A stretch of DNA of 64,000 bases from a bacterium (lineage in GTDB: Bacteria > UBA9089 > CG2-30-40-21 > SBAY01). Shown here in pieces: positions 1 to 64,000 of this stretch. Position numbers and translations under genes: made by a program. The DNA lies in the NCBI GenBank assembly GCA_040757115.1, contig JBFLYA010000001.1:1-64000 (forward strand), in the 5' to 3' direction. How positions within the stretch are numbered: the first letter of the stretch is position 1; every line of letters starts with the position of its first letter. Below the pieces are notes generated by a model. The model was given only the letters and a program-made list of their open reading frames with translations. It did no database searches and was not told where the DNA came from.

Positions 1-3000
1 GGTGCAGATTGTGGAATAACCGCAAAGAGGTTAGCTAATATAGTAACACTACCTATATCACTAATGACATTGGTATCCTCATGGGCAATAAGTGTTGTTG
101 TGCCATAAGGCTGGGTATCTATTGTCCAGGTAGTAGTGAAACTACCTTCGGCATAGGTTGAAACAATATGAATAGTCCGTGTTGTGCCAAATTCCAGGCG
201 AATAGTGCTTGATGCAGGATAACCATTACCTCTAACCGTAATTACCTTGCCTACCGAACCTTGCGTTGGGGTAATCAGGATAATCTTCGGCGTAATAAAT
301 ACAGTCAGATTATCTGCGAAGTCATCTGTTCTAACAACCACACCTTTAACCGTAGTTGTAGCATAAGGCTGCGTATCAATAGTAAAGGTAGTTTCAAAGA
401 ATCCATCTATATCTACCGTCACTGTAGTTATAGTTCTGGTCGTTCCAAATTCTATCCTCACCAATTCATTCTGTAAATAACCATCACCCTTTAATGAGAC
501 GACTGTCCCTACTGAACCAATAGTTGGAGTTACCGCAGTTAGATGTGGAATTATTCGGAAGCGATATGTAAGGACGCTTTGACCTGTATTTACTCCCCTC
601 ACAATAATAGTCGTTGTCCCTAATGTTTGCCTATCTACGGTAAAGGTAAATGTAAATGAACCTACTGGTTGCGTTGTCTCAATACTACGAGTAGGTGCAG
701 TTCCAAAGACAAGTTCTACTATTTCCTGTGCTCCATAACCATTACCTCTGATGGTAACCGTTGTTCCGATAGTGCCTTTTTCTGGCTGAATCAGAATTAT
801 TTCTGGTTTAATAGTCACACTACTGGTTGCCGCTATCACATTGTCATCATCATGGGCTGTAACCGTAGTCCTACCGTAGGGTTGAGTATCAACAGTAAAT
901 GTCGTTGAAAAACTCCCTTCCGCATAGGTAGAGGTCAATTGAATTGTCTGAGTCGTTCCAAATTCTATCCTGATAGTCTTTGATGCCCCAAATCCATTAC
1001 CCGCCACAGTAATTACCGTTCCCACTGTAGCCGCATCTGGAGTTACAAGTATAATATTTGGCAGAATAGTAAATGTTCCTGATGCCTCTTCACTACCATA
1101 AGCCTTAATTGTGGTAATGCCATAAGGTTGTGTATTAATGGTAAATGTCGTAGTCCAACTGCCATGAGCATAAGTCGATGTTGTTTGAATAGTCGTTGTT
1201 ATACCAAAATCAAGTTTAATGGTATGAGAGGCAACAAATCCATTACCAGCAACCGTAATTATCGTTCCTACTGTCCCCTCTTTTGGACTTATCAAGATAA
1301 TATTAGATTCAATAGCAAATGTCCCATACGCCTTAAGCCGTGGGGTAGTATCCTGATGAGCAATAATCGTCGTTACACCATAAGGTTGGGTATTAATAGT
1401 GAATGTTGTTTCAAACATACCTGCCGCATAGGTCGATGCCATAACAATGGTGGGTGTCGTGCCAAATTCTATTCGGATAGCTCGAGTGGCACTATAACCA
1501 TTACCTTTGACAGTAATCACCAGTCCTACTGTCCCTGAATTTGGCGAAATAAGGATGATATTAGGTAAGATACGCAGTGTTGCGGTCGCCTTAATTGAGA
1601 TATCATCTTGATGTGCAAATATAGTTGTTGTTCCATACGGCTGGGTATCAATCGTAAATGTTGTCGTGAAACTTCCTTCTATATCACTAATAACATTTCT
1701 TATATTATTAGTAGTGCCAAATTCTATCCTCAAGGTCTTAGTTATACCATAACCATTTCCACGAATAGTGATTATTGTCCCTACTGTTCCTTCCGTAGGT
1801 GTAACTGAAACAATGTTAGGTTGAATACTTAATGTGCCATAAGCCTCAATAGAAATATCATCTTCATGGGCAACAATGGTTGTCTTGCCATAAGGTTGGG
1901 TGTCAAGGGTAAAGGTAGTTGTCCAGCTACCCTCTGCATAAGTAGAAGTCAACTGTATAGTTGGGGTAGTCCCAAATTCTATCCGAATTGTCTTTGAGGC
2001 ACCATAACCATTACCTCTAACGGTTATCAAGGTACCAACTGTAGCCTGAGCTGGTGTAACTAAAACTACATTTGGTAAGATAAAGAAGGTTAAATTATCC
2101 GCTTTTTCTCCACTGACTATACCTGTTGCTTTAATAGTAGTTGCTCCATAAGGCTGAGTATCAATAATAAATCTGGTGGTGAAACTACCTCTACTATCTG
2201 TTGTTGGCTGTGGTGATGGTACTATATCCAGAAATGTCCCGAAATCAATCTGAACAAATTCTGTTGGGTTATAACCATTTCCTTTCACCGTAATTTGAGT
2301 TCCTACGGTTCCTGTATTCGGTGTTACCAGATATAGATTAGGTATTATTCTAAATTGTCTGGTATCAGAAACTCCCGATGTTTGTCCTTCAACAATTACA
2401 TTCTTTGTTCCAATATACTGGGTATCAACTGTAAAGTAGATAGTCCATGTCCCATCTATACTTGTTGGTCCTTGATTTATTAGAAGAGGTGCCGATATAC
2501 CAAAATCAATTCTCAAATTCTCTTGAGAACCATAGCCATTACCACTTAAGGTTACCTGTGTCCCTACTGTCCCAATTGTCGGTGAGACAGATATAATTCT
2601 TTGGATAACCGTGAAGGTAATAGTTCCTCTTTGTTCACTCATCAGCCCGATAGCAACAATTGTCTTTACTCCATAATGTTGTGAATCAATAGTAAATGTC
2701 GTGCCAAAGGTGCCATTAACATTAGTCGATACCGTAACAATAGTCACTGTATTACCAAAGTCAATCTGAATCAATTCATTGTCATCAAAACCATCTCCAT
2801 AAATAGTAACTATTGTGCCAACAGAACCCGTATTCGGAGTAACCTGAGTTATATTGCCAGTAATAAAGAATGTATCATAAGCAGGTGCTCCACCATTTAA
2901 GCCAGTGGCAGTAATCGTTGTTCTACCTGTTGGTTGGGTATCGATGGTAAAGGTAACGGTAAATGAACCTTTATCATCCGTCACGGTAACTGTAATTGTT

Positions 3001-3050
3001 TGCGTTGAACCAAAGTCGATTCTAATTCCCTCTATTTGTTGATACCCACC
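1..3050 (-). repeat. C-terminal-side block, units 1 to 12, rich in the AEG-turn subtype
   Basis: Loops lie at 228, 486, 744, 999, 1245, 1503, 1758, 2013, 2280, 2541, 2796 and about 3051. Several of the first eight units carry a Tyr-Ala-Glu or similar turn after FGTT; on the plus strand this shows as gcataggt or gcataagt, for example near 150, 928, 1165, 1422 and 1941. The unit with loop 2280 has a linker starting near 2079 that resembles the linkers near 20424, 33413, 40619, 46412 and 51835. This suggests the run occupies the same place in a higher-order block as those units do. The loop at 3051 reads GGGY instead of GNGY. Confidence 0.6.
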
Positions 3051-12000: not shown

Positions 12001-15000
12001 ATCATAAATGAAACCTCTCTCTCGAACTGACCACCCCTGGCTATGACAGTCTTTGAACCATATATTTGAGTATCAACCGTCCATACTGTCCAGAATGTTC
12101 CTAATTCATTAGTTTTAGTTCCAGCTTCGGTATATGGTTTTCTATCTCCAAACCAAATATCAATACTTTCTGTTACTCTATACCCTGTCCCATGCAGGCT
12201 AACAAGGCTACCTACCGTCCCGGCAACTGGTGAAATAACAATATTAGGTAAAACACGATAAGATGTATCTTCTGCAAATTTATTGCTTTCATCACTTGCC
12301 GTTATCTTTACTGAACCATAAGGCACATCTTGTGAAGTAAATGTAGTGGTAAAGGAACCTGTATTATCCGCCGAAGTCTGTGTAATCGTTAGATAATGTC
12401 CAAAATCTATCCTTATGGTATGATTGGGACCAAAACCGGTTCCTTTAACCATAATAATCGTCCCAATTGTGCCTTCACCTGGCGAAACTAAAGTAATACC
12501 TTGAACTATCTCAAAGAAATTAATCGCACAGACACCTGATGGTGTGCCCTTAGCTGTAATAGTATTCGTGCCGTTCGACTGTGGTTGAATCTCAAATGAT
12601 GTATTAAATTCACCATCAAAATTAGAAGTAGTTGTTGCCATTGGTATAAGATTCTGTGGCCAATAAACCTCAACTAATTCTGATGACCCATAACCATTAC
12701 CTTGAACACTAACTATTGTCCCTACAGGTCCTTGAACAGGTGAAACAATGGTTATCTTTGGACCAATAGTGAAATAATTAACGGCTTCCTGTTTTGGAGC
12801 ATTCACCTCATAAGCCAATACCGTTGCTGTTCCAGCAGGTTGTGTATCAATAGTAAATGTTACTGTAATAGTCCCATTACCTGAAGACGTAGTATTAGCC
12901 TTATCCATAACCGTATTATGCGGGTCTATCTCTGTCCCAAATTGAATCTTGACCGGTTGATTATTTCTATAGCCACTACCATATACTGTTACTACTAATC
13001 CAACTGTACCAGAAGATGGTGAAATCCTATAGATATTAGCAATAATCTTAAATGATGCTGTGGCTACCTCTAAAGAAAGCGTCCCTGTCGCCATAACTAA
13101 TTTAGGAGAATGCGAACTATCCACAGGCTGTGTATCTACGGTAAAGATAGTATCAAATGACCCATTATGAATTGTCGAAACAGTCGTAATCGTTCGTGTC
13201 CATCCAAAACCTATGACTACTAACTCTGATGCACTGTAACCATTTCCTTTAATGGTTACAACAGTAGTTACTGGACCAGTAGTCGGTGTAATTAAATAAA
13301 TATTAGATTTAATAGTCAGTGTGCCATAAGGATTACTGCCTGAATCTATTCCCGTTGCCCGCACTGTTGTTATTCCAACGGGTTGGGTATCGATAGTAAA
13401 TGTCGTGTTAAAGTAACCTGCCGCATCGGTACTGGTAACATTTATACTCTTTGTCGTCCCAAAATCTATCCGTATACACTCACTACCTCTAAATCCATCC
13501 CCTTGCACGATAATTATAGTTCCCACAGTGCCGGTCTTTGGCGAAATTACCTTTACGGTTGCCTGAACGGTAAAGGTTCCACTTGCCTCTTTACTGGTAT
13601 TTATTCCAACTGCTTTAATCGTAGTTATCCCTACTGATTGGAGATCAACCGTGAAAACTGCAGTGAACGAACCATAGGCAGTAGTTGTAATAAAGGTAAT
13701 CGTAGGTGTTGTGCCAAAGTGAATATGTATTGGCTCTGTTGCACCAAATCCATTCCCTCTTACCATGACAGGTATTCCTATTGTCCCATCTTTAGGCTGA
13801 ATCAGGATAATATTAGGCAAGATAGTGATCGTGCCTACTGCCTCTTCACTTCCCTTTGCCTTGACGGTAGTTACGCCATAAGGTTGGGTATTAATGGTAA
13901 AGGTAGTTGTCCAGCTTCCTTCTGCCACGCTGGATGCCAATCGAATATTAGAGTTAGTCCCAAAATCTATATGAATTGTCTTGGATGCCCCATAACCATT
14001 TCCACTTAGAGTTATGATTGTCCCTACTGTTCCTTCTTTTGGAGTAATGGAAATGATATTGGATGAAATACTAATTGTGCCTTTATCTGAAATCCCATCT
14101 CCAGAAGCAACAATCGTTGTTATACCATAAGGCTGGGTATCTATGGTAAAGGTAGTGGTAAATGAACCCTCGGCATAAGCAGATACAAATTGAATACTCC
14201 TTGTCGTCCCAAAGTCTATTTGAACCGTTTCAGATGCTCTATATCCATTACCTCGTAAAGTAATAATTGTCCCTATCGTTCCTTCGGTTGGCGAGATAAA
14301 GATAATCTTTGGTTCAATTCTAAATTTAACCTCGTAGGTAATCGTTCCTCCACACGCCCTAACTGTGGTCCAGCCATAAGGTTGGGTATTAATCGTAAAG
14401 GTAGTTGTAAAACTGCCACCTGCACTGGTAGAAACAGTGGTTATAGTTTGTGTCGTCCCAAAATTAACATAAACCGTATCATTCCCACAATAACCATCTC
14501 CAGATACGGTAACTATTATTCCTACTGTGCCGGAGGTTGGAGTAATATACACTAAGTTCTGTTTAATAAATGTATTATCAATGGCAAATATACCCAGGGC
14601 ATCATTATAGGCTATAATAGTCGTCCGTCCATAAGGTTGGGTATTAATGGTGAATGTGGTTGAGAAACTGCCGTAGGCATCTGTTGAGGTAAAGGTAATA
14701 CTTGGTGTCGTGCCAAATTTTATACGAATAGTTTGACTGGCTCCAAATCCATTACCGGTTATGGTTACGATTAACCCTACCGTTCCTTCTGTTGGTGTAA
14801 CTCCTGTAATAGCAGGTTCTATTCTGAAAGTAATATAAGCCGGATAATTCGAGTTCAATCCTGTTGCTTTAATCGTTGTCGTCCCATATTTCTGGGTATC
14901 GATAGTAAAGGTAACCGTAATTGACCCTGATTCTACGGCAGTAACTGTATTAATGGTCAGGGTAGTTCCAAAATCTATCTGCACTAATTCATTACTCAGA

Positions 15001-18000
15001 TAACCATTTCCATAGAGAGTAACTATCGTGCCTACAGTTCCCGCGGTGGGAGTAATCTGGACTAACTTCGGTGCTATCTTAAACAGTAACGAATATGCCG
15101 ATGTGCCGGTATTTATTCCCCAGACGGTAATAGTAGTCGTCCCAATTCGTTGAACATCTACGGTGAAGGTAGTTGAGAACGACCCACATCCTTCTGAAGT
15201 AATCATAGTAATAGTCTGATTAGTTCCAAATTGAATTTGCACTGACTCATTACCACCAAATCCATTACCTGCTACCGTAACCACACTACCAACTGTTCCT
15301 TCTGTTGGTGTAACTAAAATAATATTCGGTCCAATAAAATAGGTATTGCTTGCAGATACATCTCCCTCTTCCATATCAACGGCAACAACCGTTGTCGTTC
15401 CATAAGGTTGAGTATCAACTGTAAATGTCGTTGAGAAACTACCTTGTGCATAAGTTGAGGTCATAGTAATAGTCTTATTTGTCCCAAAGAGAATATGAAT
15501 GGTATGACTGGCGCCAAAACCATTACCGGTTACCGTCACTGTAGAACCAACGGTGCCATTAGGTGGTATAACTGTAGTAACCTTTGGTTTTATGGTAAAT
15601 GTCTCGATTGCAGAATTGAGTGGACAGGTCGCCTTGATTGTAGTAACCCCACTTTGTTGGGTATTAACCGTAAAGGTAATTGTCCATGTCCCTGAAGCGT
15701 TAGCAGAAACCGTTGTAATTGACCTGGTAGTTCCAAAATCAATCCGCACGGTTGAAGCAGAACCAAAACCATCACCTTCTAATGTTACTATTGTCCCCAC
15801 TGTGCCTTCTTTGGGTGTAGAGGTATAGATTTTTGCCATTACATAGAAGATATTTGATGCTCGCTTTTCGTATTCAAGCATTTGTGCATATTTATATGAA
15901 TTCCAGGCAGTAAATGTAGTTGTTCCTGCTGGCTGTTGAATATTAAAGTCATAGACCAAACTAAATGTCCCTGCCTGACTGGCATAAGTACCACCATAAG
16001 GAGGTGCTGGTGGTGTTACACTAGAATCCGTACCATATATTGTCCCAAAATCAACATAAATCCCTTGACTTGCCGCATAGCCTGTGCCAAAGAGGGTAAT
16101 TTGACTTCCCACCGTCCCTTTAGTCGGTGAAACCCAGACTAACTCTGGAATTATCTTGAATAAATCATCTACACCACCTGTATCATCATCTTCAAAACAA
16201 GAAGTTGTATCTGTGCCATAGATAGTCTTTGTTCCATAGGATTGGGTATCAACTGTCCATGTGCCATTAAATTCACCTCTATCCGTTGCCGTCGTAATCG
16301 CAATTGTTCGTGTCCAGCCAAATCCAATCAGCACCTCACCACCACCGGTATAACCATTACCCGAAACGGTAACTATAGTCCCTACCGTTCCCTTAATTGG
16401 AGTAATGCTAACAATATGTGGTACTATTCGTAAGGTATCTGTAGCTTGTTCACGACCTGTAGGTTCTTTCGGACCGATAGCCATCGCTGTCGTTGTTCCA
16501 AAGACTTGAATGTCAATGGTAAATGTTTTCGTAAATGTCCCTGAGGCATTAGTCGTAGCAATAGTAATGGTGGAATTATTACCAAAGGCAATACGGATAT
16601 TGCTATTTTCAGTATAACCTCTACCTTCAATCGTAATTGTTGTTCCTACGGTAGCAGACTTAGGTGTAAGTGTAGTAATTATCGGTAAGATAAAGAAGTA
16701 ATTGCGTGCCCATTGTGCTGTGCTCAGACCAATAACCTTAATAGTTGTCGTGGCAAAAGGCTGAGGTATAGAAACTACACTCTGATCGAATTTTGCAGTA
16801 AATGTCCCTTCTGGAGAGACTCTCGGGTGAGTATCTGGCTCAATAATCACAAATCCCGTATTAGCAACTAAACCATACTCTGTCCCATAATCAATTGTTA
16901 TATTTTCTCCATTTACACCATCTCTACCAAAACCTGTTCCCTTAATAGTAATTATAGTTCCTATTGTCCCTGTAGTTGGACTAACCACAGTAATTTCTGG
17001 AATAAGAACAAAATATCTATACTGGTCAGGTCCTTTATTCCAGTATTCACCCCACTTATCTACTTCCTGAGTGTTAAGTCCTGTAGCCACAATCGTCTTG
17101 GTGCCAAAGTATTGGGTATTAACCGTAAAGATAGTAGCAAATGTCCCGGCATTGTTAGTTGAAACTGTGGTTATAGTTAAGGTTGTGCCTAAATCTATCT
17201 GCACTACCTCATTAGCACCATAACCATCACCCTGAATAAGAATTGTATCTCCTACCTGTGCCTTCCATTTATCTGGCACATCAAAATGTGGCACTTCTAC
17301 TTGCCGACTGATTAGTGTAATATGTGAATTTATCTTAAATAAGTCATCACTGCGATGATTATCCAGATCAAAGACATCAGCCGCCACAATTGTATGTGTC
17401 CCTGCCGGCTGTGTATTTACCGTAAAGGTAATACTGAATGTTCCACAGGCATTTGTCTTTGTTTCGGTAATAGTGGTAGTCTGACCAAATGTTACCCGCA
17501 CGGTAGCCGTAGCCGCATAACCATCACCAGCTATAGTTACAATTGTTCCTACAGACTGTGCCCTTGGTGTAACCAACCAGATATGCGAAATTATCTTAAA
17601 GGAATCTACATCCCTATATTCATCTTTATCAAAGTCATTGTATCCCATCCCTCCTGGTATCATACGAAATGCCTTAATAGTTGTCGTCCCATAAGATTGT
17701 GAATTAACATTAAATGTAATTGAAAATGTCCCATTATAATTTGCAGTCTGTTGGATTATTGCCCAGCTAGTCCCAAACTCTATCGTTACTGTCCCCTGAC
17801 GATGATAACCATTTCCATAAACTGTAATTGGCAATCCTACCGTCCCCACAGTAGCGGTAACATAAACAATATTATGCGTAATCTTGAAATAAGTATGATA
17901 TTGTGTAGTAGTCCGTTCCCCGACTGCATTGACCGTATGTGTTCCATAGCATTGTTCATCAACCGTCCATTGTGTTATAAAACTACCATTGCCTGCTGCA

Positions 18001-21000
18001 GTTACCGTTGTAATACTCATATTTGTCCCAAATTCTATACGAATAAGTTCACTACCACCATAACCTGTTCCACTTACCTCTACTACAGTTCCCACTGTTC
18101 CGGTAAGAGGTGTAATACTAATTCCAGGGATAATTATAAAGTAATCATAATCCTTTGTAATCTGACCTGTGGCTGTAATAGTAGTTGTTCCCACAGGTTG
18201 AGTATCAACCACAAATGTGGCACTAAATGTTCCATTAGGTCCGGCAGTAGACATAGTAATACTTATATGTGTTCCAAAATCAATCTGGACAATTTCACTT
18301 GCCAGATAACCACTTCCTATGATAGTAACTTGAGTCCCTACTTGCCCTGAAGGAGGAATTACACTTATAATTTCTGCCTTTATAAAGAAGTTATTAAATG
18401 CCTCTTGTTTAGACATACCTTCAAGTGTTCCTCTACTTCTTACCGTAGTAGTTCCTGCTGGTTGAGTATTAATAGTGAATATATAAGTAAACTGTCCAAT
18501 ACCATTACATGTAGTTATTATATTAAATTCAACTGTAGTTCCAAACTTAATTTTTAGCTCATCCCCTGCATCATAACCATCACCATAAATTGTTACCCGA
18601 CTTCCTACTGTCCCTTGTGTTGGCGAAACGGTATGAATCCTGGCGATAATGGTGAAACTACCCATCAAAACTCGCCCTGATGTGAGTCCTGTTACCACAA
18701 CACTCTTTGTCCCAAAAGTCTGCACATCAACCGTAAATGTCAATGAGAAACTACCGTATGCATCTGAAGTGGTAATAGTTATAGTCGAATTAACCCCAAA
18801 CCTGACATGAATGGTCTCTGTTGCTTCAAATCCATCACCCGTAATAGTAACCACTGTCGTTACTGTCCCTATGGTTGGGGTAAATAGTGTAAATTGCGAT
18901 AAAATATTAAATGTCCCGCTTGCCTGCTGACCTGTATTTATGCCTCTTGCAGTAATCGTTGTCCAGCCATATCGTTGAGGATTGATAGTAAATGTAGTGC
19001 TAAATGAACCTGAATCAGTCGTCCTGGTAACAATGATACTCACCGTCGTTCCAAAATCAACCTGTATCTCTTCACTCGCTCCAAACCCACTACCGGCTAC
19101 TGTAACGATTGACCCAACAGTATTGGCTTGTGGCTCAACCTTGAATATCTCTGGCTTGATAACTATCAACCGATAATCTTGCACCAAATCAACCTCATTT
19201 ATATCTGTGGCAATAATGGTTGTCGTGCCGTAAGGTTGCGTATTGATTGTGAAGGTAATTGTCCATGAACCCTGCGGTTTAGAGATAACCGTTGTAATCG
19301 TCTTTGTCGTTCCAAAGTCAATCTGAATAGTATGAGTTGCACCAAATCCATTACCGCTTACCATAATAATCGTTCCTACTGTGCCTTCTATTGGACTGTA
19401 ATAAATAATTTGTGGCAAAATAGTAATGGTAGCAATTGCCTCCTCACTTCCTCTTGCCTTGATAGTCGTAATTCCATATCTCTGTGTATCGATAGTAAAT
19501 GTAGTTGTAAAGCTGCCTTCGGCATAAGTTGAGGTAACTTGAATACTTGGCGTTGTCCCAAAGTCAAGATGAACTATCTTGTATGCCCCATAACCATTGC
19601 CTTTAACCGTGATAATTGCACCGACAGTCCCTGATGTTGGTGTAAGAGAGATAACATTTGACTCGATACTTAAAGTCCCTTCTGCCTTTATTACTTTACT
19701 ATCGCTATGAGCAACAACAGTAGTAATTCCGTAGTGTTGGGTATCAATGGTAAAGGTAGTAGTGAAGCTACCTTCGGCATAAGTTGAGGTAGTTTGAATA
19801 GTTAGTGTTTTTCCAAACTCTATCCGAATGATGGTTGAGGCATCGTAACCATTACCTCTAATAGTAATTATCGTCCCTACAGTTCCAGAGGTAGGTGAAA
19901 TAAGAATGATATTCGGTAGAACAGTTACACTGCCATAGCGATGTAATCCCTGGTCATCTCCATGAGCACCTACTGTCGTTGTGCCATAAGGCTGCGTATC
20001 AATAGTAAATGTTGTGGAGAAACTTCCTTGTGCATAGGTTGAGGTAAGTTGAATAGTCGGTGTAGTTCCAAATTCTATCCTTATTGTCCTTGAGTTGCCA
20101 TAGCCATTACCACAAATAGTAATGATTGTTCCAACCGTGCCTTGCGTTGGTGACAGGTAGATGATATTGGGTAATATAGTAAGAGTCTTTTCTGCATTAA
20201 TACCATCGCCATGTCCCTTTACTGTAGTTGTCCCATAGGGTTGAGTATCAATAGTAAATGTGGTAGTGAAGCTACCTTCGTCATAAGTTGAAGTAAGTTT
20301 AATAGTTGGTGTTCTCCCAAACTCTATACGAATCCTTCTATAAGCCTCAAAACCATCACCCCTCACTATAACTACCGTTCCAACTGTCCCTGTATTTGCG
20401 GTAACATAAACGATATTTGGCAGGATAAAGAATGTCAGGTTATCGGCATCGGCACCGGTAGTCATACCTGTTGCTTTAATCGTTGTCACACCATAAGGTT
20501 GTGTATTGATGGTAAAGGTAGTAGTGAAGCTACCTTCTAACTCTGCTGTCACAGTGGTAATCGTCATTGTCGTGCCAAAATCTACCTGGATTAACTCACC
20601 TGCTTTATATCCACCACCGCGTAATGTAACTACTACACCGACAGTTCCTTGAGTTGCAGTTACTGACACTAATTGCGGCTTAATCACATACTCAAACTTC
20701 CAACTGCTCTTGCCAGTCATAACCCCAATTGCCTCAATAGTCGTCGTGCCTATCGGTTGAGTATCAACCGTAAAAGTAGTGGTGAAGCTACCGCAGTATT
20801 CTGCAGAAACTAAGGTAATTGTCTCTGTCGTTCCAAACTTAATTCTTACTAACTCACTTGAACCATAACCATTACCTCTAACTGTAACTACACTTCCTAC
20901 TATGCCTTCTTTTGGCGTAATTAGTATAATCTCTGGAATAATTCTGAGTCTATCATCATCTGAGGCAATATCTCCTGCAATAGCCTGGACATCCACTGCC

Positions 21001-24000
21001 ACAATGGTCGTCGTGCCATAAGGCTGTGTATCAATGGTGAAGGTGGTTGAGAAACTACCGTGTGCATAAGTAGAAGTCATAGTAATCGTTTGATTAGTTC
21101 CAAAGAGAATATGAATGGTATGACTGGCGCCAAAACCATTACCTGTAACCGTAACTATTGTCCCTACTGTAGCTACCGCAGGAGTAACTGAAGTAATAAC
21201 AGGTTTAATTCTAAATGATTCCGTAGCAAAGTTAAGTGGACAGGTAGCAGTAATTAAGGTATTACCACTCTGTTGCGTATTAACCGTAAAGGTAATGGTA
21301 AATGTTCCTGAGGCATTAGCAGAAACCGTAGTAATAGACCTGGTAGTTCCAAAATCAATCCGCACGGTTGTAGCAGACCCAAAACCATCACCTTCTAATG
21401 TTACTATCGTCCCCACTGTGCCTTGTTTCGGTGTAGATGTATAGATTTTTGCCATCACATAGAAGATATTCGATGCCTTCTTATCATCACCTTGTGGTAT
21501 CGCGTGAGTATATGAATTCCAGGCAGTAAATGTGGTAGTGCCTGCCGGTTGCTGAATTCTGAAATCATACACACTACTAAATGTTCCCGCCTCACTGGCT
21601 GTTCCATAAGCAGGCAGGAGATGATCTACCTCCCAGTCTTCATCCTTATCTGTTCCAAAATCAACATAAATTCCTTGACTTGCCGCATAGCCTGTGCCAA
21701 ATAATGTAATTTGTGTTCCTACAGTTCCCTTAGTCGGTGATACCCAGACTAACTCAGGAATTATCTTGAACAGGTCATCTACTCCACCCAGGTCATTATC
21801 TTCTACACCAGAAACAGTATCAGTAGCATAAATAGTCTTTGTCCCATAGAATTGAGTATCAACTGTCCATGTCCCATTAAATTCACCCGTTGGATTTGCC
21901 GTTGTAGTTGTAATCGTCCGTGTCCAGCCAAATCCAATCAGCACCTCGCCACCACCGGTATAACCATTACCATAAAGTGCAACTCTCGTTCCCACCGTCC
22001 CTTTAGTCGGTGTAATACTAACAATATGTGGCACTATTCGTAAGGTATTTGTAGCTTGTTCACGACCTGTAGGTTCTTTCGGACCAATACCCGTCGCTGT
22101 CGTTGTTCCAAAGACCTGAACATCAATGGTAAATGTCTTTGTCCATGTGCCTGAAGAATCTGTGCTCGCCATAGCAATCGTTTGATTATTACCAAAGGCA
22201 ATGCGAATGATAGCATTTTCTGAGTAACCTTTACCTTCGATCGTAATTGTTGTTCCTACAGTGGCGGATTTCGGTGTAAGTGTTGTAATCTTCGGCAGTA
22301 TAAAGAAATAATTTTGTGCAAACTGTTTGGTACTGCTACCATAAACGACAATAGTCGTTGTCCCAAATGGTTGGGGAATATCTACTATGTTTTGTAAAAA
22401 TGCTACAGTAAATGTTCCTTCTGATGAAACTCGAACTGGTTCATAAGGAGGTTCGATACCCTCTACTCCATATTCAATATGAATCAATGTCCCATAATTA
22501 ATCTCTAAATATTCACCATTTCCTAATTCATCTCGATGACCATAACCTGTTCCACACACAGTAATAATTCTTCCTACGGTTCCGGTAGTTGGAGTAACTA
22601 CAGTAATTTCCGGGATAATGACAAAGTATCTGTATTGGTCAATACATTTTTGCCAATATTCACCCCATTTATCGACTTCCGAAGTTGTAACTCCGGTAGC
22701 AACAATTGTTTTTGTTCCAAAGTATTGCGTATTTACCGTAAATGTGGTGCTAAATGTCCCTGCATAATTAGTGGTTACCGTTGTTATTGTCAATGTTGTT
22801 CCTAAATCTATTTGAACCATTTCTGTCGCACCATAACCATCTCCAGTAATGAGAATAACATCTCCAACTTGTGCCTTCCATTTATCTGTTACCACAAAAT
22901 GTGGTATCTCTGAAGTCCTACTAACTAAGGTGATATGTGAGGTTATTCTGAATTCATCGTTATCACAATGATTATCCAGATCAACTAAATCAGCCGCAGT
23001 TATGGTATGACTACCTGCTGGTTGTTCATTCACGGTAAAGGTAACACTAAATGTCCCGCAGACATTTGTTGAGACTTGAGTGATAGTAGTTGTCCAGCCA
23101 AAATTTATCCGAACTAAAGCCAAACTCGCATAACCATCACCAGCAACTGTAACAATTGTCCCCACTGACTGTGTCTTTGGTGTTACCATCCAGATATGTG
23201 AAATTATCTTAAAGCAATCAATATCACTATAATCTGGTGTATCCCATAAATCTTGTAATCCTGCTGGTCGGTCACGCTGAGCAATAATTGTCGTTGACCC
23301 ATAAGGTTGGTCATTAACCGTAAAGGAAATGCTAAATGTCCCATTAATATTTGCCAACCGTTGTATCATTATTGGCACAGTGCCAAATTTTATCGTAACG
23401 GTGCCATTTCGATGATAGCCATTACCATAAACCGTAATTGGTAATCCAACCGTGCCTACCGTAGCAGTTACATAAACGATATTATGTGTAATCCTAAATT
23501 CCTTATTGAATGAAGTGTTTGATGGTGCACCAACAGCAGTTACAGTATGTGTGCCATAACATTGTTCATCAACCGTCCATTGTGTGCTGAAATAACCTGA
23601 TGCCTGTGAAGTTATAGTCGTAATTGTTCGATTTGTGCCAAATTCTATGCGGATAAGTTCACTGCTACCATATCCAGTTCCACTTATCTGGACTATTGTT
23701 CCTACTGTTCCAGTTTCTGGGGTAATGATAATTCCAGGTGTAATGACAAAATATTGATATGCACCAGTAATCTGACCCGTTGCTTTCACCGTTGTCGTTC
23801 CCACCGGTTGAGTATCAACCGTAAATGTAGTACTAAATGTCCCATTTGGTCCTGAGGTAACCGTAGTAATCGTCAGATGCGTGCCAAAATCAATCGTGAT
23901 AAGTTCTGCTGCCTTATATCCAGTTCCTTGAACCGTGACGGGTGTTGACACGGGTCCAGAAGATGGCACAACTGATGTAACTTCGGCCATAATAAAGAAA

Positions 24001-27000
24001 TAATTATATGCTAACTCTTTAGACTTATTTGTCCCTCTACTCCTAACAGTTGTTGTTCCTGCTGGTTGAGTATTAACTACAAATGAATGGAGAAATTGTC
24101 CGTTAGAATTAGATGATTGAACCTCTGTAGATTCTTCATCCGTTCCAAATTTAAGGACTATATCTTCTATGGCAGAATATCCATCTCCTCTTATTGTAAC
24201 AACTGTCCCTACCGTCTGACGATATGGAGTAACCTCATATATTCGCGCAATAATCTTAAATTTACCATAATCTACAACACCACTGGTTAATCCTTTTGCA
24301 CTTATCGTCTTAGTTCCATAAACCTGGGTATCAACCGTAAATGTCATTGAGAAACTACCATAAGCATCTGTTGTTGTCATCGTAATAGTGCCAGTATTAC
24401 CAAATCCAATACAAATCCCCTCGGTTGCACCATAACCATTTCCAGTTACCGTCACGATGCTATATATCTTTTCACCAGTAGTTGCCACAATAAGAGCTTC
24501 TACTACCCCAGATGTAGGTGTAATAAGTGTAATCCTTGGTAAGATAGTAAATGTGGATGTAGCAATAACATTTTCCGCTGCTGATAATGTTGATGTTCCA
24601 CTTGCTTTAATTAATGTCGGTCCCTGTTGTTGAGTATCCACAGTAAAACTGATACTGAATGCCCCCAATTTATCAGTTCTGGTAATAATTCTGGGTCTTG
24701 TTGTCCCAAAATCAATTTGTATCCCTTCACTTATCCCAAAACCATTACCGGCTACTGTCACCTCACTACCAACAGTTCCTGATTGAGGACTAACTAAAAT
24801 AATATTCGGTAGTATCTTCACGGTAAATGTTGCATCTTGTGCGCCGCTATTCACACCAATAACTCTAATTGTTGTTGTGCCATAAGATTGCGTATCAATT
24901 GTAAATGAGTATTCAAATTCACCTTTATAATCACTATTATACCAGATAGTTCTGGTTGGATTATTCCCAAACTCTACTCGTATTGGTTCCACTCGACCGA
25001 AACCGCTACCTTTTACTGTCACGGCACTACCTACACTTCCCGCATAAGGTGCCACTGAATCAATATGTGACAAGATAGTAATAAATGTCGAAGTCCCATC
25101 TTGTGAACTCATACCGATAGCAAAAATAGTTGTTGTCCCATAAATTTGGGCATTAATCGTAAATGTCGTGCTAAATGACCCATTATTTTCTGCCTGGGCA
25201 ATAGTTGCTGTATTTGTAGTCCCAAATAATATATGGACTTGCTCATTAGAATAATAGCCATTACCTCGAACAGTAATTATTGTGCCAACTATCCCCTGGG
25301 TTGGAGTAACAAAGATAATCTCTGACCTTATCTTGTAAATATATCTTTCATAAGACTGCCCGGTGGATGACCCTACGGCTATAATACTTGTAGTTCCATA
25401 AGATTGAGTATTAACGGTAAATATGGCGGTAAAGCTACCCGAGGCAGTGCTGGTAACCGTAGTAATAGTCCGTTCCGTCCCAAAGATAATACTAATCATT
25501 TCAGTAGCACCAAACCCATTACCCGCAACTGTAACCCAACTACCAACAGTTCCTTCCGTAGGAACTATAGAGACAATATTAGACAGGATAACAAAAGTAG
25601 AAGTTGCTGTAGCTGGAGATGTTACTCCTGGAGTAGAATCAACATCCGTCGCTATAATCGTCGTTGTCCCATAAGGTTGAGTATTAATTGTAAATGTAAC
25701 GGTAAATGACCCACCGCTTTTCATATTCATCTGGGTAATATTAATTGTTGTTCCAAAATGAATACTGGCACCATTTGCCGGATAATTAAATCCATTACCA
25801 TAAACAGTAACTACTTTTCCAACCGTTCCAGAAGTTGGGGTAACATAAACTATCTTAGGTAAGATTTCGTAACCCAGAGAAACTTGTTTAGATACACTAC
25901 TTTCATCTTTTGCCCAAACCTCTCTTAGTGGATAATGCATCTGTTCTGGAACTGTAAATATGGTTGAGAAACTTCCATGTGAATAAGAAGATGTTAGAGT
26001 TATGGTTGCTAAATCAACTCCAGTTACACCAAATAATATCGCTATCGTCTTAGAGGCATTAAACCCATTTCCTGCGATTGTTACTTTACTTCCTACTATT
26101 CCGGATTGTGGTGTAAAGACAATGATATTGGGTTCTATCTTAAATTCATGCCTGGCAATAATTCCTTTAGAATCAATAGCAGTTATCGTTGTTGAGCCAT
26201 AAGGCTGGGTATCGATGGTAAAGATAACTGTGAATAAGCCATTTCCATCAGTTGATATACAAGTAATACTCAATGTCGTTCCAAAATCTACTCTTACATA
26301 ATCGGTCCCTGTAAAACCATCACCGCTCATTGTCACTATAGTTCCTACTGTGCCCTGATTAGGACTAACATCAATTATCCTTGATAATATCCTGAAGAAG
26401 ACGGTAGCAGTAGTTCCTGTATTCACACCTTTAGCTATAACTGTTGTTGTTCCTACAGGTTGCCCATTAACAGTAAATGTCGTACTGAATGAACCATAGT
26501 CCCCATCAATATTAACCAGTGGAACAATAGTTACTGTCGTCCCAAATGAAATCAGGATTTTCTCATTTGGAGCACCACCAAAACCATTACCCGCAATTGT
26601 CACCGTCGTACCTACAGTTCCATCACTCGGGTTAAATACCGTAATATTAGGTCTTATCTTAAACTTATCCTCTGCAGATATATTCTGTGCATCCTTAGCT
26701 TTAATCTTACAAGCATCACCACTTGCATAGTCTCCGTATGCATCAGCCCGCTGAGTATTGACCGTAAATGTAGTTGTCCAGCTACCATACGCTGTTGAGG
26801 TAACGGTTGTAATTGACGAATGCATACCAAATTGTATGACAATAGGACTTGTGGCATTAAATCCATTCCCACTCAAAGTAACTATCGTTCCGACTGACCC
26901 TGTTTGTGGGCTGACATAGATAATCTTTGGCAGTATCTTGTAGGTATTGCTCGCAGAGCCTAAACTACCGTAGCCAGTAATCGTTGTTGTGCCGTAAGGC

Positions 27001-30000: not shown

Positions 30001-33000
30001 GCCTCGGTCTGCCCAAATCCATTCCCGGCTATCGTTATTTCAGTTGTTACTACCCCTATAGTTGGTGTAAAGGTGATTAATTGTGAAAGTATATTAAATG
30101 TCCCTACTGATTCTTGTCCTGTATTTAATCCAGCTGCCTTAACTGTCGTTATCCCATACCTCTGGGTATCTATCGTAAATGTGGTTGAAAAACTACCTCG
30201 TTCAGATGTCCTTGTCGTAATAATCGTCTTTGTCGTCCCAAAGTCTATCCTTATTTCCTCGGTTGCTCCATATCCTGTCCCTAATACCGTAACTATCGTC
30301 CCTATTACACCCTCTGTTGGTGAAATCCACACGATGACCGATTTAATGGTAAATGTCGCATATAACTGCTCGGCTACATTCACATCGATTATTGTCATCG
30401 TTGTTGTCCCATAAACTTGCGTATCTACCGTAAATGTAGTTGAGAATGACCCATACGCCGTGCTACTTATCGTTGTTATCGTTGCCTCTAATCCAAAACT
30501 TATTCGTATCAGACTGCTCGCACTATACCCATTACCGGCTACACTTACTATCGTCCCTACTGTCCCCAAACTCGGTGTCCACTGGATAATGGCTGGCTTA
30601 ATATCAAATGTCTCCGTTTGCTTACCAGCATCTCCAGATGTTACACCTCTTATGACTATAGTGGTTGTTCCATAAGGTTGGGTATTGACGGTAAATGTAG
30701 TTGCAAATGACCCACTCTCATTTGCCCTTGTCGTGGTAATCGTATTAATCGTCCCAAATGATACCCTGATTACCTCTGAAGCTGAATAACCATTACCAGT
30801 TACCGTTACTATAGTCCCTACTATCCCTTGTTTTGGTGTAGTTATTATCTGCGTGGTAATCGTAAATGTATTTGCCGCCTCTGCCCGGGTTGTGCTTCCT
30901 ATAGCTACTATCGTCGTAATTCCTATCGGCTGAGTATTTATAGTAAATGTTGTTGAGAAACTACCCTGTGCATAACTTGAAGTTGTAGTTATCGTCCTTG
31001 TCGTCCCAAAATGGATATTGACTAATTCACTTGCCCCATATCCATTACCTGCTATGGTAACTATTGTCCCTACTGTCCCTGTCTTCGGTGTAACTAAGAA
31101 TATAACTGGATTTATCTTTATTGATTGAAAAGCTGATATAGTTATTCCTAATGTCCTATATGCCTTTATCGTAGTCGAACCATACGGTTGAGTATTGATA
31201 GTAAAGGTAGTGCTAAAACTACCTTCTGCAGATGCTCCAGGACAAACGATTATACTCGTTATCCCAAAATCTACTATCACATCTTCATTCCCAAAATATC
31301 CATTTCCTGCTATCGTTATTATCGTCCCTACTGTCCCCTCTGTTGGCGATACATACCAGATATGCGGCATTATCTTAAAGATATTATTCTTCTGTGCACT
31401 TGCACCTGCCTCAGTCTGTGACTGGGCTATAATGGTCGTCGTCCCATAAGGTTGAGTATCTACGGTGAATGTAGTAGTGAATGAACCATACATAGTGCTG
31501 GTGACTGACTGAATTGCCCCTGCCCGTGTCCCAAATTTAATATCTATCCCACTACTGGCTGGATAACCATTACCTCGAACCGTCACTAAACTACCGATAC
31601 TGCCAGAAGTAGGCGTTATCTCGATTATCTCGGAGAGGATAAATACCGTCAAATTCTCTGCTGAGCCTCTTGAAGTTATCCCTTCGGCAATAATCGTCGT
31701 TGAACCATACGGCTGTGTATCGATGGTAAAGGTAGTTGTGAAGCTTCCTTCCAGTGTCGCAAAAGTCGTAGTAATTGTCTGTGTTCTCCCAAATCCAATT
31801 CGCACTTCCTCATTGCTCAAATACCCACTACCCTGTAATGTTACTATTGTCCCGACTGTCCCTCTATCCGGCGTTACATACACTAATTTCGGAACTATCT
31901 TGTATTCCCACTTCAAGACTGGATAGTTTGAACTCATCCCTCTAGCAATAATGGTCGTCGTGCCCAAACTCTGTGTATTGACTGTAAATCTCGTGCTGAA
32001 ACTACCTATACCATCACTGCTCGTCATCGTTATCGTCCCACATGTCCCAAAAACAATATGCACTAATTCACTGGCACTATATCCATTACCTGCAACAGTA
32101 ACGATACTCCCTACTGTCCCTTCTTTAGGTGATATAACGATTATCTCTGCCAGGATACTCAATGTCCCACCCGCCTGAATACTATCTCCATAAGCCGTGA
32201 TACTGGTGGTGCCATAAGGTTGCGTATCTATTGTCCAGGTAGTCGTCCAACTCCCTTCTGCGTAGGTAGAGGTTAGTTGGATAGTCCGTGTCGTGCCAAA
32301 GGCCAGCCGCACCTGCTCTGAGGCATTAAATCCATTACCACGAATAGTGATTACCTTCCCTACTGTCCCTTCGGTTGGGCTAATCATAATGATATTTGCC
32401 AGAATCGTCAATGTCCCAAATGAACTTATTCCCTCTGTCCCATAAACCGTAATGGTGGTCATCCCATAAGGTTGGGTGTTAATCGTAAAGGTTGTGGTAA
32501 AGCTTCCCTGAACATCGCTCGATGTCATTTGAATCGTTCTGGTCGTCCCAAAGTTGAGCCGCAATCGCTCCTGACTATGATACCCCGTGCCTCTGATGGT
32601 AATCACCTCACCTACTGTCCCGGTTGCTGGAACAACTAAGATAATGACTGGTTTGATGGTAAATGTGCCACTGGCATTCACATTATCGCTATCTGTTGCC
32701 TTCACTGTGGTTATGCCATAAGGCTGCGTATCTACGGTAAATGTAGTGGTGAAACTCCCTTCGCCATAACTTGAGGTAATCTGAATTGTTCCTATTGTCC
32801 CAAAATCTATCCGAATCGTCTTTGATGCACCAAATCCATTCCCTCGCACAGTTACTATCGTCCCCAGTGTCCCTTCGCCTGGTGTTATCAGAATGATATT
32901 GGGTAGAATGGTGTATGTCCCGATGGCTGATTCATCTCCCCTTGCCTTGATAGTGGTGATACCGTAAGGTTGCGTATCGATGGTAAAGGTAGTCGTAAAT

Positions 33001-36000
33001 GACCCTTCTGCATAAGTTGAGCTAGTTTGAATGGTTAGCGTTGTGCCAAAGTCTATCTTCACTATCTTCCCTGCTCCATAACCATTTCCTCGCACCGTCA
33101 CCAGACTACCTACTGTCCCTTGTTTTGGCGTAATCAAGATAATATTGGGCAGGATACTTACTGTCCCTTCTGCAAATACCTCACTGCCTTCATGCCAGGC
33201 CTTAATCGTAGTTATGCCATAGGGCTGGGTATCGATAGTAAAGCTGGTGGTAAAGCTTCCTTGTGGATAACTTAAAGTCGTCTGAATTGTGCCAACTATA
33301 CCAAAGTTAATGCGGATGAGTTTGGTCGCTCCATACCCATTCCCACTGACTACTATGATTGTCCCTACTGTCGCCTGTTTGGGTGAGATGTAGATAATAT
33401 TTGGCTGGATAAAGACCGTTAGATTGGCAGAACTGTAGCCTGAATTTACACCTACTGCCTTAATTGTAGTTGTCCCATAAGGTTGTGTATCAATCGTCCA
33501 GGTGGTTGTCCAGCTACCTTCTTGAGCCGCTGAAACTACGGTAATTGTTTGGGTCGTGCCAAAATCTATCTGCACTAACTCCCCTGCTTTATACCCACCG
33601 CCTCGTAAGGTCACTACTGTGCCTACTGTGCCTTTGTCTGGTGTTACACTGACTAATTGCGGTCGTATCTGGTATGTGGCTGAAGCAAATTGTTGACCTG
33701 TTTGAATACCTACGGCGGTAATGGTCGTTATGCCTAAAGATTGCGTATCAACGGTAAACACTGTCGTCCACGAACCATAAGCCTCACTCGTGGTTATACT
33801 TATCGTCCGGGTATTCCCAAAATGAATATGTATTACCTCTGTCCTGCCATATCCATTACCACGCACCAGCACTTCACTCCCAACTGTCCCTTCTGGTGGC
33901 TGAATAAGAATGATATTTGGTGTAATGACAACGCTCTGAGTTGCCCGCACATCCTCTGTCAGACTCACATCTACAGCCGTAATTGTCGTTGTGCCATAAG
34001 GCTGAGTAGTGATAGTAAATGAGGTAGTCCATGAGCCAAAGGCAGTCGTAGAAACGGTAACTAATGTTGGTGTCGTGCCAAAATCTATCCGCACCGAAGT
34101 GGCACTACCATACCCATTCCCACTCACCGTAACTATTGTTCCTACTGTTCCTGTTTGTGGGCTGACATAGATAATGTTGGGCAATATCTTGTAGGTATTG
34201 GTAGCAAAGCCAAGTGCGCCGTAGCCAGTAATCGTGGTTGTGCCGTAAGGCTGAGTATTGATGGTAAATGAAACACTAAATGTGCCGTTAACATTTGTTG
34301 ATGTCGTCTGAATCGTCGGTGTCGTGCCAAAGCCAATCCGCACCAACCCTTCTTTCGGATACCCATCTGCCTTAATCGTTACCACACTCCCCACCGTGCC
34401 TTCAGTCAACTCTACCTTCCAGATAGCCGGCAGAATGTTGAAGCAACCAGTATCTGATTCGAGAGAAGAACTAACATTTTGTGCCTTCACCGTCCTTATC
34501 CCACCAGGTTGAGTATCTACGGTAAATGTAGTTGAAAATGTCCCATTTGTTGTAGTAACAATATCTTTCCGAACTTCTGATACTCCAAAGTATATCCTTA
34601 TATCCAAAGCCACTGATGCATATCCATTACCTTCTACAGTGACTATTGTTCCTACTGTTCCTTGAGGTGGTGAAATTACTGTAATCTTTGCGGTAATCTT
34701 AAATGTATTGGTAGCAGCGGATTCACCACAGATAGCACCTGTGCCTACGATAAGCTTACCATCATAACTCTGGGTATCTACCGTAAATACAGCAACAAGC
34801 AATCCTACCGCATCTGTAGTAGCAATCGTAATAGTTCTTGTTTTACCAAAACCTATTAGAACCTGTTCTGATACAGAATAACCGTTACCTGTTATTGTAA
34901 TTTGAGTTCCTACTGACCCACTTGTTGGAGATACACTTATAATATTAGGTTTGATTGAGAAGAAGAAAGTAGTGCTTGTTGCCCTTTGCTCAGGACGAGA
35001 TATACTTATACCTATAATCGTTGTTGTGCCATAAGGTTGGGTATCTACTGTAAATGTAGTTGTGAACGAACCACTTACTTCTGAAGTAAGAATAGTAATC
35101 GTTGAATTGATACCAAATGCAATTCTTAATGCCTCACTCTTACCAAATCCATTACCATAGACTGTAACTTGACTCCCTACTGTTCCCAAAGTAGGATAAA
35201 CATTGGTAATTTTAGGCAGAATCTTAAACCAACTAAATGCTGAATGTTGTGTTTGTTGCCCCTTTGCCTCTACAGTAGTAGAATCATACGGTTGAACATC
35301 GACATTAAACCTAGTAGTAAATGTTCCTATTAAAGAACTCCTATCTAAGCTCTGATTAATATTAACTCCTGTGTAACCAAAGTCAATCTGTATCAATTCT
35401 GTAGCACCAAAACCATTCCCTTCCACTGTAACATTAGTCCCTACAGTGCCCAAAGATGGTGTAACCAATATAATGTTAGGTATTATCTTATAGGATTTAG
35501 TTACCTGCTGGGATGTATTTTGACCTGTCATAGTAACTGTCTTTGTGCCATAGATTTGGGTATTAACGGTAAAGGTAGTAGCATAAGTTCCATCTACAGT
35601 AGTAGAAACAGTAGTAATACTTTCTGTATTACCAAAATCTATTCTGACTAATTCACTGGCGCCATATCCTGTTCCTTGGATAGTAACAAAACTCCCTACT
35701 GTGCCCTCTGTAGGTGTAAATATAGGTATATCTACCTCTATTCTGAACCACTCATCTGCCTTATGTTTTTGCATATCATTCAATCCATAACCAGTGATTG
35801 TCTTTGTCCCATAGTATTGTGTATCTATAGTAAAGATAGTGGTAAAGGTTCCATCTTGATTGGTAGAAGTCATAGTAATAGTTGTGGTTTTACCAAAGTC
35901 AATTCGGATTTGTTCATTAGCCGCATACCCTGTCCCTTGAACAGTTACTATGCTTCCCACCGAACCATTATTTGGTGTAATTACTATCTTAGAGGTAATC

Positions 36001-39000: not shown

Positions 39001-42000
39001 TTGTTTGTGCCAAAGTCTATTCTTACCAGCTCACTGCCACTAAAACCATCAGCGGTAAGCATAACTACTGCCCCAACTGTTCCTTCGGTAGGAGTAATGC
39101 CGGTTAGTTTGGTTAATATTCGATACTCAAATCTTTCAGAAGAAACAAAAACATTCATCCCCACTGCCTTAATAGAGGTTGTGCCATAAGGTTGTGTATC
39201 AACGGTAAATGTTGTCGTCCAACTCCCGTGGGCATAAGTTGAAGTGGTAATAATTGTTGGTGAACTACCAAACAGAATATGGATTAAATCACTTGCCCCA
39301 AATCCATTACCTCGCACAGTCACAAAACTCCCTACTGTGCCTGAAGTTGGAGTAATGGAGATGACATACGCATTTATCGCTACCGTGCCTTTAGCGAATA
39401 CCCCTGTTAATCCAAAAGCCTGAATAGTAGTAATCCCACACGGCTGAGTATCTATGGTAAAGGTGGTGCTGAAACTACCTTCGGCATAGGTTGATGTCCG
39501 TTGAATCGTTGGAGTAGTCCCAAAGGCTATACGAACAAGTGTGCTGGCATTAAACCCATTGCCTCTGATAGTAATAATCGTCCCTACACTTCCATCGGTA
39601 GGGCTGATATAAATAATGTTTGGCAGGATAGTAAATGTGCCCTCTTTAATTGCATAACCACTTGAAGCCTTAATGGTAGTTATTCCCCATCTTTGTGTAT
39701 CTACCGTAAATGTAGTGGAGAAACTACCCTCTGCATAAGTAGATGTCAGACGAATATCCGTTTTGTTGCCAAAGTGGATACTAATAGTTGTCGAAGCCTC
39801 AAATCCATTGCCAGTAATGGTAATGGTTGTTCCCACCGTTCCTTCTGTCGGCGTAATCAAGGTAATATTAGGCAGGATAGTAAATGTGCCAGAAGCATCT
39901 TCACTACCGTGTGCCTTAATTGTCTTCACAGAGTATGATTGAGTATCTACCGTAAATGTGGTTGTCCAGCTACCTTCGGCATAAGTAGAAGTAGATTGAA
40001 TACTTGCAGTCCTTCCAAAATCTATCCAGATAGTCTTTGATGCCCCAAAACCATTACCTCTCAAGGTAACTATTGTTCCCACTGTCCCTGTCTTTGGACT
40101 AATCTGAATAATGTTTGGCGTAATTGCAATCGTGCCCCAATCAGACTCATCGCCATGAGCAACAACCGTAGTTATGCCAAAAGGCTGGGTATCAATGGTA
40201 AATGTGGTGGTAAAGCTACCTTCGGCATAAGCAGAGGCTAACTGAAGTGCAGGTGTAGTTCCAAAGGCAATAGTTATCGTCTTTGAAGCACCAAAACCAT
40301 TACCCCTGATAGTGATAATCGTTCCTACTGTCCCTGTAGTTGGTGATAAATAAATAATCCTTGATTTAATAAAGAATGTCTTTTCTGCCTGAGTGACAGT
40401 TCCATAGCCGGTAACAGTTGTGCTACCATAGGGCTGGGTATCAATAGTAAAGGTGGTGGTGAAACTACCCTCGATAGATGTCTGTGTAGTCTGGATAGTT
40501 GGGCTTCTACCAAATCCTATACGAATATCTTCATTTGCCTTAAACCCATCACCTCTAACCGTAACTACAAGCCCTACTGTGCCTTCAGATGGGGTAACAT
40601 AAACAATATTAGGTTTAATGAATACCTCAAAGTTCTCTGCCCCGAATCCTGATGAGCACCCGGTTGCTTTGACAGTCGTCGAACCATACGGTTGGGTATC
40701 AATGGTAAATGTTATGGTAAAGCTTCCTTGTGCCACGGCAGAGACTACCGTAATCGTTTGCCTTGTGCCAAAATCTATTCTCACTAATTCATTTGCCTGA
40801 TACCCACCACCGCGCAAGGTTACGATTGTCCCAACAGTGCCTTGCGTTGGAGTAACTGAAACCAATCTTGGCGTAATACGGAAGGTAACTGTAGCTACCT
40901 GTTGCCCTGTAGATATACCAACCGCAGTAATAGTTGTTGTCCCTAAACCTTGAGTATCAACGGTAAATGTAGTGGTAAATGACCCATAGGCTTCAGTTGA
41001 AATAATGGTAATAGTCTTTGTCGTGCCAAAGTGGATGTGTATCCCTTCAGATGCCCCAAAACCATTACCTCTAACCGTAACTCTACTTCCTACCGTCCCG
41101 GATAGTGGGGTAACCAATATAATATTTGGTTTAATGGTAAATCTATTTGTCGCACTTACTAACTCACCATCTATCGTCTCAAAACCAGTGATAGTTGTAG
41201 TTCCGTAAGGTTGTGTAGTAATAGTAAAGGTGGTAGTGAAGGAACCATAGGCAGTTGTAGAAACTGTTCTCAGCCCCAGCGTTGTGCCAAAGTCAATCCG
41301 CACCGTAGTTGCACTTCCGTAACCATTACCCCTAACCGTAACAATTGTCCCTACTATTCCTTCTGTAGGTGTAACTGAGAAGATAGCCGGCAGTATCTTG
41401 AATGTATTCGTCGCAAAATCTAATCTGCCATAGCCGGTAATGGTAGTTGAGCCGTAAGGTTGGGTATTGATGGTAAATGTGGTGCTGAAACTACCATTGA
41501 CATTGGCGGAAACCTGAGTAATAGTTGGTGTTGTGCCAAAGGCTATCCGCACCGTCTCTGATGAAGAGAATCCTGTTGCTTCTATGGTAATTACTGTGCC
41601 GACAGTCCCTATCTTTGGACTTACAAACCAGATTTGCGGGAGAATATAGAAACTACTATATGCATTTCTCTCACTATTATTTGGATATCCTCTTTCATAG
41701 GCTTGAATAGTTGTTGTCCCACCAAATTGAGTATCTACGGTAAAGTAATGTATAAATTCACCCGTTGCAGTTGTTGTCCCTTGTAAGAATGGGTCATTAA
41801 TCTTCTCTGTTCTATTACCAAAGAAAACAAGGATTTGGACACTTGCGGCATAACCATTACCTTTAATAGTTATGGGGGTACCAACCGTTCCTCTATCTGG
41901 ACTTACTGAATAGACATTTGGTAATATCTTAAATGAGCCTGTTCCTATCTCTTGAGAAGTAGTTCCTGTTGCAACGATAAGTTTGGTATCATAAGGTTGG

Positions 42001-64000: not shown

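Follow-up and report, generated by a model that had tools for sequence, protein, structure and literature searches.

The 64,000-nt stretch of DNA that we analysed (the window) appears to be the middle of a single gene for a giant secreted surface protein of about 46,000-48,000 amino acids (aa), a tethered fibre that would be exported by a T9SS-like pathway; we put the probability of this reading at roughly 0.6. The window comprises bases 1-64,000 of the 85,129-bp contig C1 of the source genome (G000; 4.32 Mb in 462 contigs, rated 99.9% complete). The sequence-only reading had claimed that the minus-strand phase is open from 63998 to 3, over at least 21,332 codons. We re-translated the window and found no in-phase stop in this frame (0 stops in 21,332 codons), compared to 800-2,775 stops and open stretches of at most 56-208 codons in the remaining five frames. 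Minus-strand translation across the full contig gave a single open frame of 28,375 codons, with neither a start nor a stop on the contig. The features of the window are collected in Table 1.

Table 1. Coordinates and basis of the features located in the window
Feature	Position	Strand	Basis and remarks
Middle of the giant gene, 21,332 codons with 245 TIG/IPT Ig-like units (~85 aa each) in tandem	3..63998	-	Frame scan and unit profile; start and stop lie outside the window
C-terminal edge of contig C1, not the gene end; the frame continues	1..300	-	Equals ~residue 25,970 of 44,562 in the same-genus genome G001; stop on contig C29
Tandem block duplication of ~20 units (13,696-18,785 and 19,294-24,389)	13696..24389	-	70% DNA identity over 5.1 kb
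Collinearity shift of ~2,400 aa (~28 units) against the sister species (contig residues ~17,086-18,360)	30050..33872	-	Mapping of 255-residue pieces
Representative unit pair, modelled as two beta-sandwiches	40353..40859	-	AlphaFold2, mean pLDDT 91.3, pTM 0.81

Repeat units, ends and length of the gene

A profile of the repeat unit located 306 units on contig C1, of which 245 start in the window (244 had been counted from the letters), with a median period of 86 aa and no gap of more than 60 aa. The array runs from residue ~1,748 to the contig end, and both window edges fall inside it, in agreement with the earlier claim. The units share a core pattern (tP..GtVGt.vT..GnGy...e.i.I.FG.t.tIt...GsF..tFTvdtQpyGttTi) and have a median pairwise identity of 43%. 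Pfam TIG (PF01833) gave 71 matches over the curated cut-off in the genome, most of them on C1, and many single units passed; a Pfam scan of one 666-aa piece of the array did not list TIG, though single units pass in the genome search. The modelled unit pair is all-beta, and the last strand of one unit (77-81) and the first strand of the next (84-89) are separated by only two residues. Fold matches included neocarzinostatin (Z 10.9, rmsd 2.2, 86 aligned), the Deinococcus HPI S-layer (Z 9.8, rmsd 2.3, 82 aligned), the extending region of a large adhesion protein (Z 9.8, rmsd 8.2, 156 aligned) and, for the second unit, the IPT/TIG domain of EBF3 (Z 9.3, rmsd 2.7, 83 aligned); many Ig-type folds score alike, and ties within Z 1 were left unranked. 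The TIG matches, the model and the fold matches agree with the earlier view of the units as TIG/Ig-like, and we assign them to the TIG/IPT family (PF01833) by the sequence cut-off, with a predicted Ig-like beta-sandwich fold. Beads so diverse in sequence and so uniform in structure would suit a mechanical spacer or tether better than an enzyme.

Both termini of the gene were found outside C1, a signal-sequence start on contig C25 and a stop on contig C29. On the minus strand of C25, a 463-aa frame begins with a Met and a hydrophobic signal sequence (IIKGLLSLFVIGTVVFCFNGVAQAA), Sec-type by eye and nearly alike in the sister species G001, a genome of the same genus assembled separately from G000. 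The frame leaves C25 within a ~249-bp tandem repeat. On its N side, C1 starts inside this repeat as well, and the two contigs are 96% identical there over 164 bp. In G001 the near-identical signal sequence lies on the array scaffold, across a 100-N gap in near-identical repeats, and in both genomes a beta-propeller gene lies upstream of the start. Contig C29 carries 8,268 aa that enter from the contig end and are terminated by a stop. Its first 7,334 residues match G001 residues 37,222-44,562 at 89% identity, which ties the array to the C-terminus, and its last part recurs on G001 contig C323 at 91% identity; the ~270 aa missing between the non-overlapping G001 contigs C2 and C323 are covered by C29. 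Each internal join is thus spanned without a break by a contig of one genome or both; the exception is the N-terminal join, for which the repeat overlap and the scaffold gap are the evidence.

The middle of the gene between C1 and C29 in G000, ~11,250 aa, was borrowed from G001 (~25,970-37,222) and could differ by tens of units. With this piece, the estimated full length in G000 is about 48,360 aa (463 + 28,375 + ~11,250 + 8,268, with no single spanning contig), and that in G001 is about 45,800 aa. At a mean residue mass of ~105.6, the protein would weigh ~5 MDa, and the gene would occupy ~3.4% of the genome. The size class given by the sequence-only reading, a giant single frame, therefore holds, and the actual estimate is larger (~46,000-48,000 aa, ~500 units). 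A search for the missing middle with one 852-aa piece gave C87 as the best new contig, which was rejected as a different protein with a peptidase-like N-terminus and TIG units. Contigs C122, C152, C177 and C274 were rejected as continuations because their units are more like those of other TIG proteins, cysteine-bearing or shorter ones, and because C29 matches the giant of G001 at 89%.

The claim that no domain other than the repeat is present stands for the window but not for the gene, which carries other beta-rich sequence at its ends. The first ~1,740 aa of C1 are beta-rich and outside the TIG array, the whole region after the signal is ~2,200 aa long, repetitive and beta-rich, with no Pfam or NCBIfam match worth counting, and at the C-terminal side the gene has ~1,800 aa of beta-rich sequence other than TIG. 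The sequences strongly support the predicted domain order of a Sec-type signal, the ~2,200-aa beta-rich region, ~500 TIG units, the ~1,800-aa beta tail and a terminal domain of the FlgD-Ig/CHU_C/PorU-tail kind. Pfam and NCBIfam scans of selected pieces showed no catalytic, enzymatic or carbohydrate-binding domain, in contrast to giant genes for which cell-wall degradation has been reported, and no recognised adhesive domain was found.

Conservation, growth and distribution of the array

Contigs C1 and C2 of G001 have an identical stretch of 127 nt at their ends, of the kind that assemblers leave at a k-mer join, and together give 44,562 continuous residues in one frame with 487 units. We cut the translation of G000 C1 into 255-residue pieces and placed each on G001. 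Residues 1-17,085 mapped in order with almost no offset, residues 18,361-28,375 mapped with an offset of about -2,400 aa, and collinearity ran straight through the G001 C1/C2 join. The shift between the two stretches (Table 1) would represent a block either gained in G000 or lost in G001. An end-to-end BLAST comparison of the two genomes (57% identity) was set aside, as beyond residue ~17,000 it runs out of register at a paralogue-level identity of ~40%. Over 30,450 codons of the collinear pieces, dN/dS was 0.31 (piece median 0.25), and differences at codon positions 1, 2 and 3 numbered 4,514, 4,089 and 9,370. The low dN/dS and the third-position excess strongly support a translated frame under purifying selection.

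Unit similarity within C1 peaks at a lag of 21 units. Together with the 70% identity of the two 5.1-kb blocks, this indicates that the array grows by multi-unit blocks. Further duplicate pairs ~5.4-5.5 kb apart were seen at 46,067/51,491 and 41,190/46,716, with a super-period of ~21 units. Identity between G000 and G001 alternates along the gene between ~95% and 50-60%, with dS ranging from 0.17 to 1.13 alongside. As dS moves with identity, the alternation suggests that blocks have been replaced in mosaic fashion, rather than that selection is uneven; the SprA-like protein described below is, by contrast, 98% identical between the two genomes.

The lineage is Candidatus Desantisbacteria and relatives, a name that we give to the window's own genome by kinship; the Omnitrophota, which the sequence-only reading had brought in for comparison, are not the lineage. 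Candidatus Desantisbacteria bacterium CG2_30_40_21 corresponds, in its contig numbers and positions, to a genome of the same order (G007). A public record that agrees likewise with a genome in the same family, SBAY01000085.1 (G003), is labelled Nitrospira sp. Bin_21_1, and this label looks wrong. A search of the order's genomes found large arrays in G000, G001, G004 (JASEHA01, isolate Yes70-11) and G005 (JAHIZN01, Modern_marine.mb.176). The whole-contig arrays measured 19,075, 11,115, 3,240 and 1,435 aa in G004, and 18,588 and 3,274 aa in G005. Comparable arrays were not found in the other four genomes of the order, including G006 and G007, where fragmented assemblies make absence uncertain; so the array does not appear to be universal in the order.

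Other TIG-array proteins of one to several thousand aa are encoded in G000 (on C87, C152, C122, C177 and C13). Their N-termini vary (peptidase-like, NHL-like), several share the C-terminal domain kind of the giant, and some have cysteine-bearing 'GCGTITVSAKG' units. Long TIG arrays also occur elsewhere, as in a genome outside the phylum (G046), where an open frame of 9,685 aa on contig C112 matches TIG strongly.

Export and the proposed fibre

The C-terminal domain of the giant on C29 gave weak matches below cut-off to CHU_C (20.5 bits, cut-off 27), FlgD_ig (19.7, cut-off 27) and TIGR04183 (16.3, cut-off 23), and a match to the PorU C-tail at 40.4 bits (E 7.7e-11), also below the family cut-off. 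Dozens of other G000 proteins end in a domain of this kind, and a profile scan of a 500-aa C-terminal piece found no RTX nonapeptide repeats. Directly downstream of the giant's stop, in the same orientation, lies a PorV-family gene in G000, G001 and G004, which represent two families. G000 encodes two PorV-family proteins, which scored 131.6 and 238.9 bits against NF033709 (cut-off 90), and the first adjoins the giant. The linked copies of G000 and G004 are 46% identical, versus about 30% to the second G000 copy (on C25). From these scores, we assign to the host a predicted PorV-family outer-membrane shuttle. The genome also encodes a 2,011-aa SprA-like protein with collinear partial matches to TIGR04189, below the 200-bit cut-off, and homologues of ~2,000 aa were present in all eight genomes of the order examined. 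For the motor protein GldM/PorM (TIGR03517), five of six genomes gave no match at E<=10, and G001 gave one at E 0.23. In Flavobacterium, the gene of an adhesin such as SprB is linked to that of a dedicated shuttle, SprF in the case of SprB (PMC12618676). In view of this precedent, the linked PorV gene and the SprA-like protein, we propose a route that would work like the T9SS with a cognate shuttle; as GldM was not found, we do not file it as a canonical T9SS.

We propose that the chain would leave the cytoplasm via Sec by its N-terminal signal, and that its C-terminal domain would then be recognised by a type-IX-like system made up of the SprA-like barrel and the linked PorV-family shuttle, the latter in a role like that of SprF for SprB in Flavobacterium. 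The protein would be held at the outer membrane by its C-terminus, and the Ig array could extend up to ~2 micrometres as a fibre by which the cell is attached to a surface, to a matrix or to another cell. The sequence-only reading had put the visible part at close to 1 micrometre, a span that is plausible but rests on inference. Four 104-aa Ig repeats of the adhesin MpAFP form a ~190-A rod (PMC4083281), and at ~4 nm per 85-aa unit the ~500 units could span ~2 micrometres, with compact or flexible packing also possible.

The strongest form of this proposal falls somewhat short of even odds: the ~48,000-aa chain would be translated whole and threaded through the SprA-like pore with its dedicated PorV-family shuttle, to serve as a single covalent tether of ~2 micrometres, longer than the cell. 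If true, no larger substrate of a T9SS-like pathway would be known, and perhaps no longer fibre made of one polypeptide; the giant is about as long as PKZILLA-1 (45,212 aa). Made whole, it would be a limit case for translation, export and folding, with ~1 h of translation, ~5 MDa to be moved through a pore in the outer membrane and a single fibre taking up about 3% of the genome. Most giant bacterial genes are hard to interpret, being poorly conserved and known as fragments without ends. In this case the two ends have been identified, together with an orthologue under purifying selection, a secretion-type C-terminal domain and a linked shuttle gene, which makes the reality and the role of the protein directly testable.

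Several other explanations were weighed against the tethered fibre. The exported chains might pack laterally or be released, forming a sheath, an S-layer-like coat or a matrix instead of single tethers. The fold matches include the Deinococcus HPI S-layer and another S-layer protein, the giant ORF of Velamenicoccus archaeovorus has been proposed as coat-forming (PMC10066038), and type A substrates, those served by PorV, may be released or statically anchored (PMC12618676). However, a dedicated linked shuttle gene is more in keeping with a product that stays on the cell and is present in few copies. As a rule, S-layer proteins are much shorter and assemble by themselves from identical subunits, whereas the units here differ (median 43% identity), and we consider a coat or matrix unlikely, though deserving of attention. 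We give less credence to the idea that the gene yields several shorter TIG-array proteins, through proteases or internal starts, with no 46,000-aa chain ever made. Some 48,000 codons take about an hour to translate at usual rates and the genome encodes several peptidases of the C25 family, both of which would suit such processing; but secretion signals were found nowhere except at the two ends, which would leave interior products with no way out, and there is no stop or long phase break in G000 or G001.

A predatory weapon, that is, a giant degradative surface protein, has been proposed for Omnitrophota and other giant-gene bacteria, and giant genes of other candidate phyla have been so interpreted (PMC12057145, citing West-Roberts 2023). 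The scanned pieces contain only Ig-like and other beta repeats, with no enzymatic or carbohydrate-binding domain, and we regard a weapon as highly improbable. The explanation to which we assign the least weight is an assembly artefact, in which shorter, separate TIG genes were chimerically joined. The relatives that have names were assembled from metagenomes, tandem repeats are known to be hazardous, and some array contigs do end inside near-identical repeats. Against this, the longest exact DNA repeat within C1 is 44 bp, which leaves the usual short-read assembly little to misjoin on; together with the divergence of the units and the collinearity of G001 over most of C1, this makes misassembly unlikely. 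In addition, whole-contig open arrays recur in contigs named in both SPAdes and MEGAHIT style, and the 57- and 33-kb array contigs of G004 have similar coverage (24x and 25x; other array contigs 16-20x).

Comparison with known systems

Titin also places hundreds of Ig/FnIII beads in series, and is a cytoplasmic, eukaryotic molecular spring; the giant is bacterial, predicted to be extracellular, about a third longer and built from one main bead type. A Chlorobium giant of ~36,800 aa is likewise a predicted surface protein, and SprB is far smaller than the giant described here. SprB of Flavobacterium johnsoniae, a type B T9SS substrate (PMC12618676), is a large surface adhesin that bears a Sec signal at one end and an export domain at the C-terminus, and its gene is linked to that of an outer-membrane shuttle; the giant resembles it in having such a linked gene and a putative form of each of the two signals. 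It differs in that its shuttle, SprF, is of the PorP/SprF kind, whereas that of the giant is PorV-family; GldM was not found here, and gliding is not implied. MpAFP of Marinomonas primoryensis is a 1.5-MDa RTX ice adhesin with ~120 repeats and a length of ~0.6 micrometre (PMC4083281). Both are secreted tandem Ig-like arrays, a rod projecting from the cell in MpAFP and a predicted fibre here. MpAFP has identical, calcium-rigidified 104-aa repeats, an ice-binding domain and RTX repeats, whereas the giant would have ~500 divergent units of ~85 aa, roughly threefold the mass, a C-terminus of T9SS-like type and no known ligand domain.

Single ORFs of the 10^4-10^5 aa class have been described from other uncultured bacteria, including one of 39,678 aa in Velamenicoccus archaeovorus of the Omnitrophota (PMC10066038) and one of ~85,800 aa (West-Roberts 2023, as cited in PMC12057145). 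Those giants carry transmembrane helices or degradative or mixed domains and are described as poorly conserved, whereas the giant here consists almost entirely of one kind of Ig-like domain, has an orthologue in another species and shows ends that can be recognised as secretion-type. Our literature search, mostly outside subscription journals and bioRxiv, returned no description of such a TIG array in this lineage. Giant ORFs as a class are already known, as are TIG stalks in fibrillar adhesins (PMC9210967); what is new is that a near-homopolymer of a single Ig-like domain reaches this size, is conserved, and has both identified ends and a linked shuttle.
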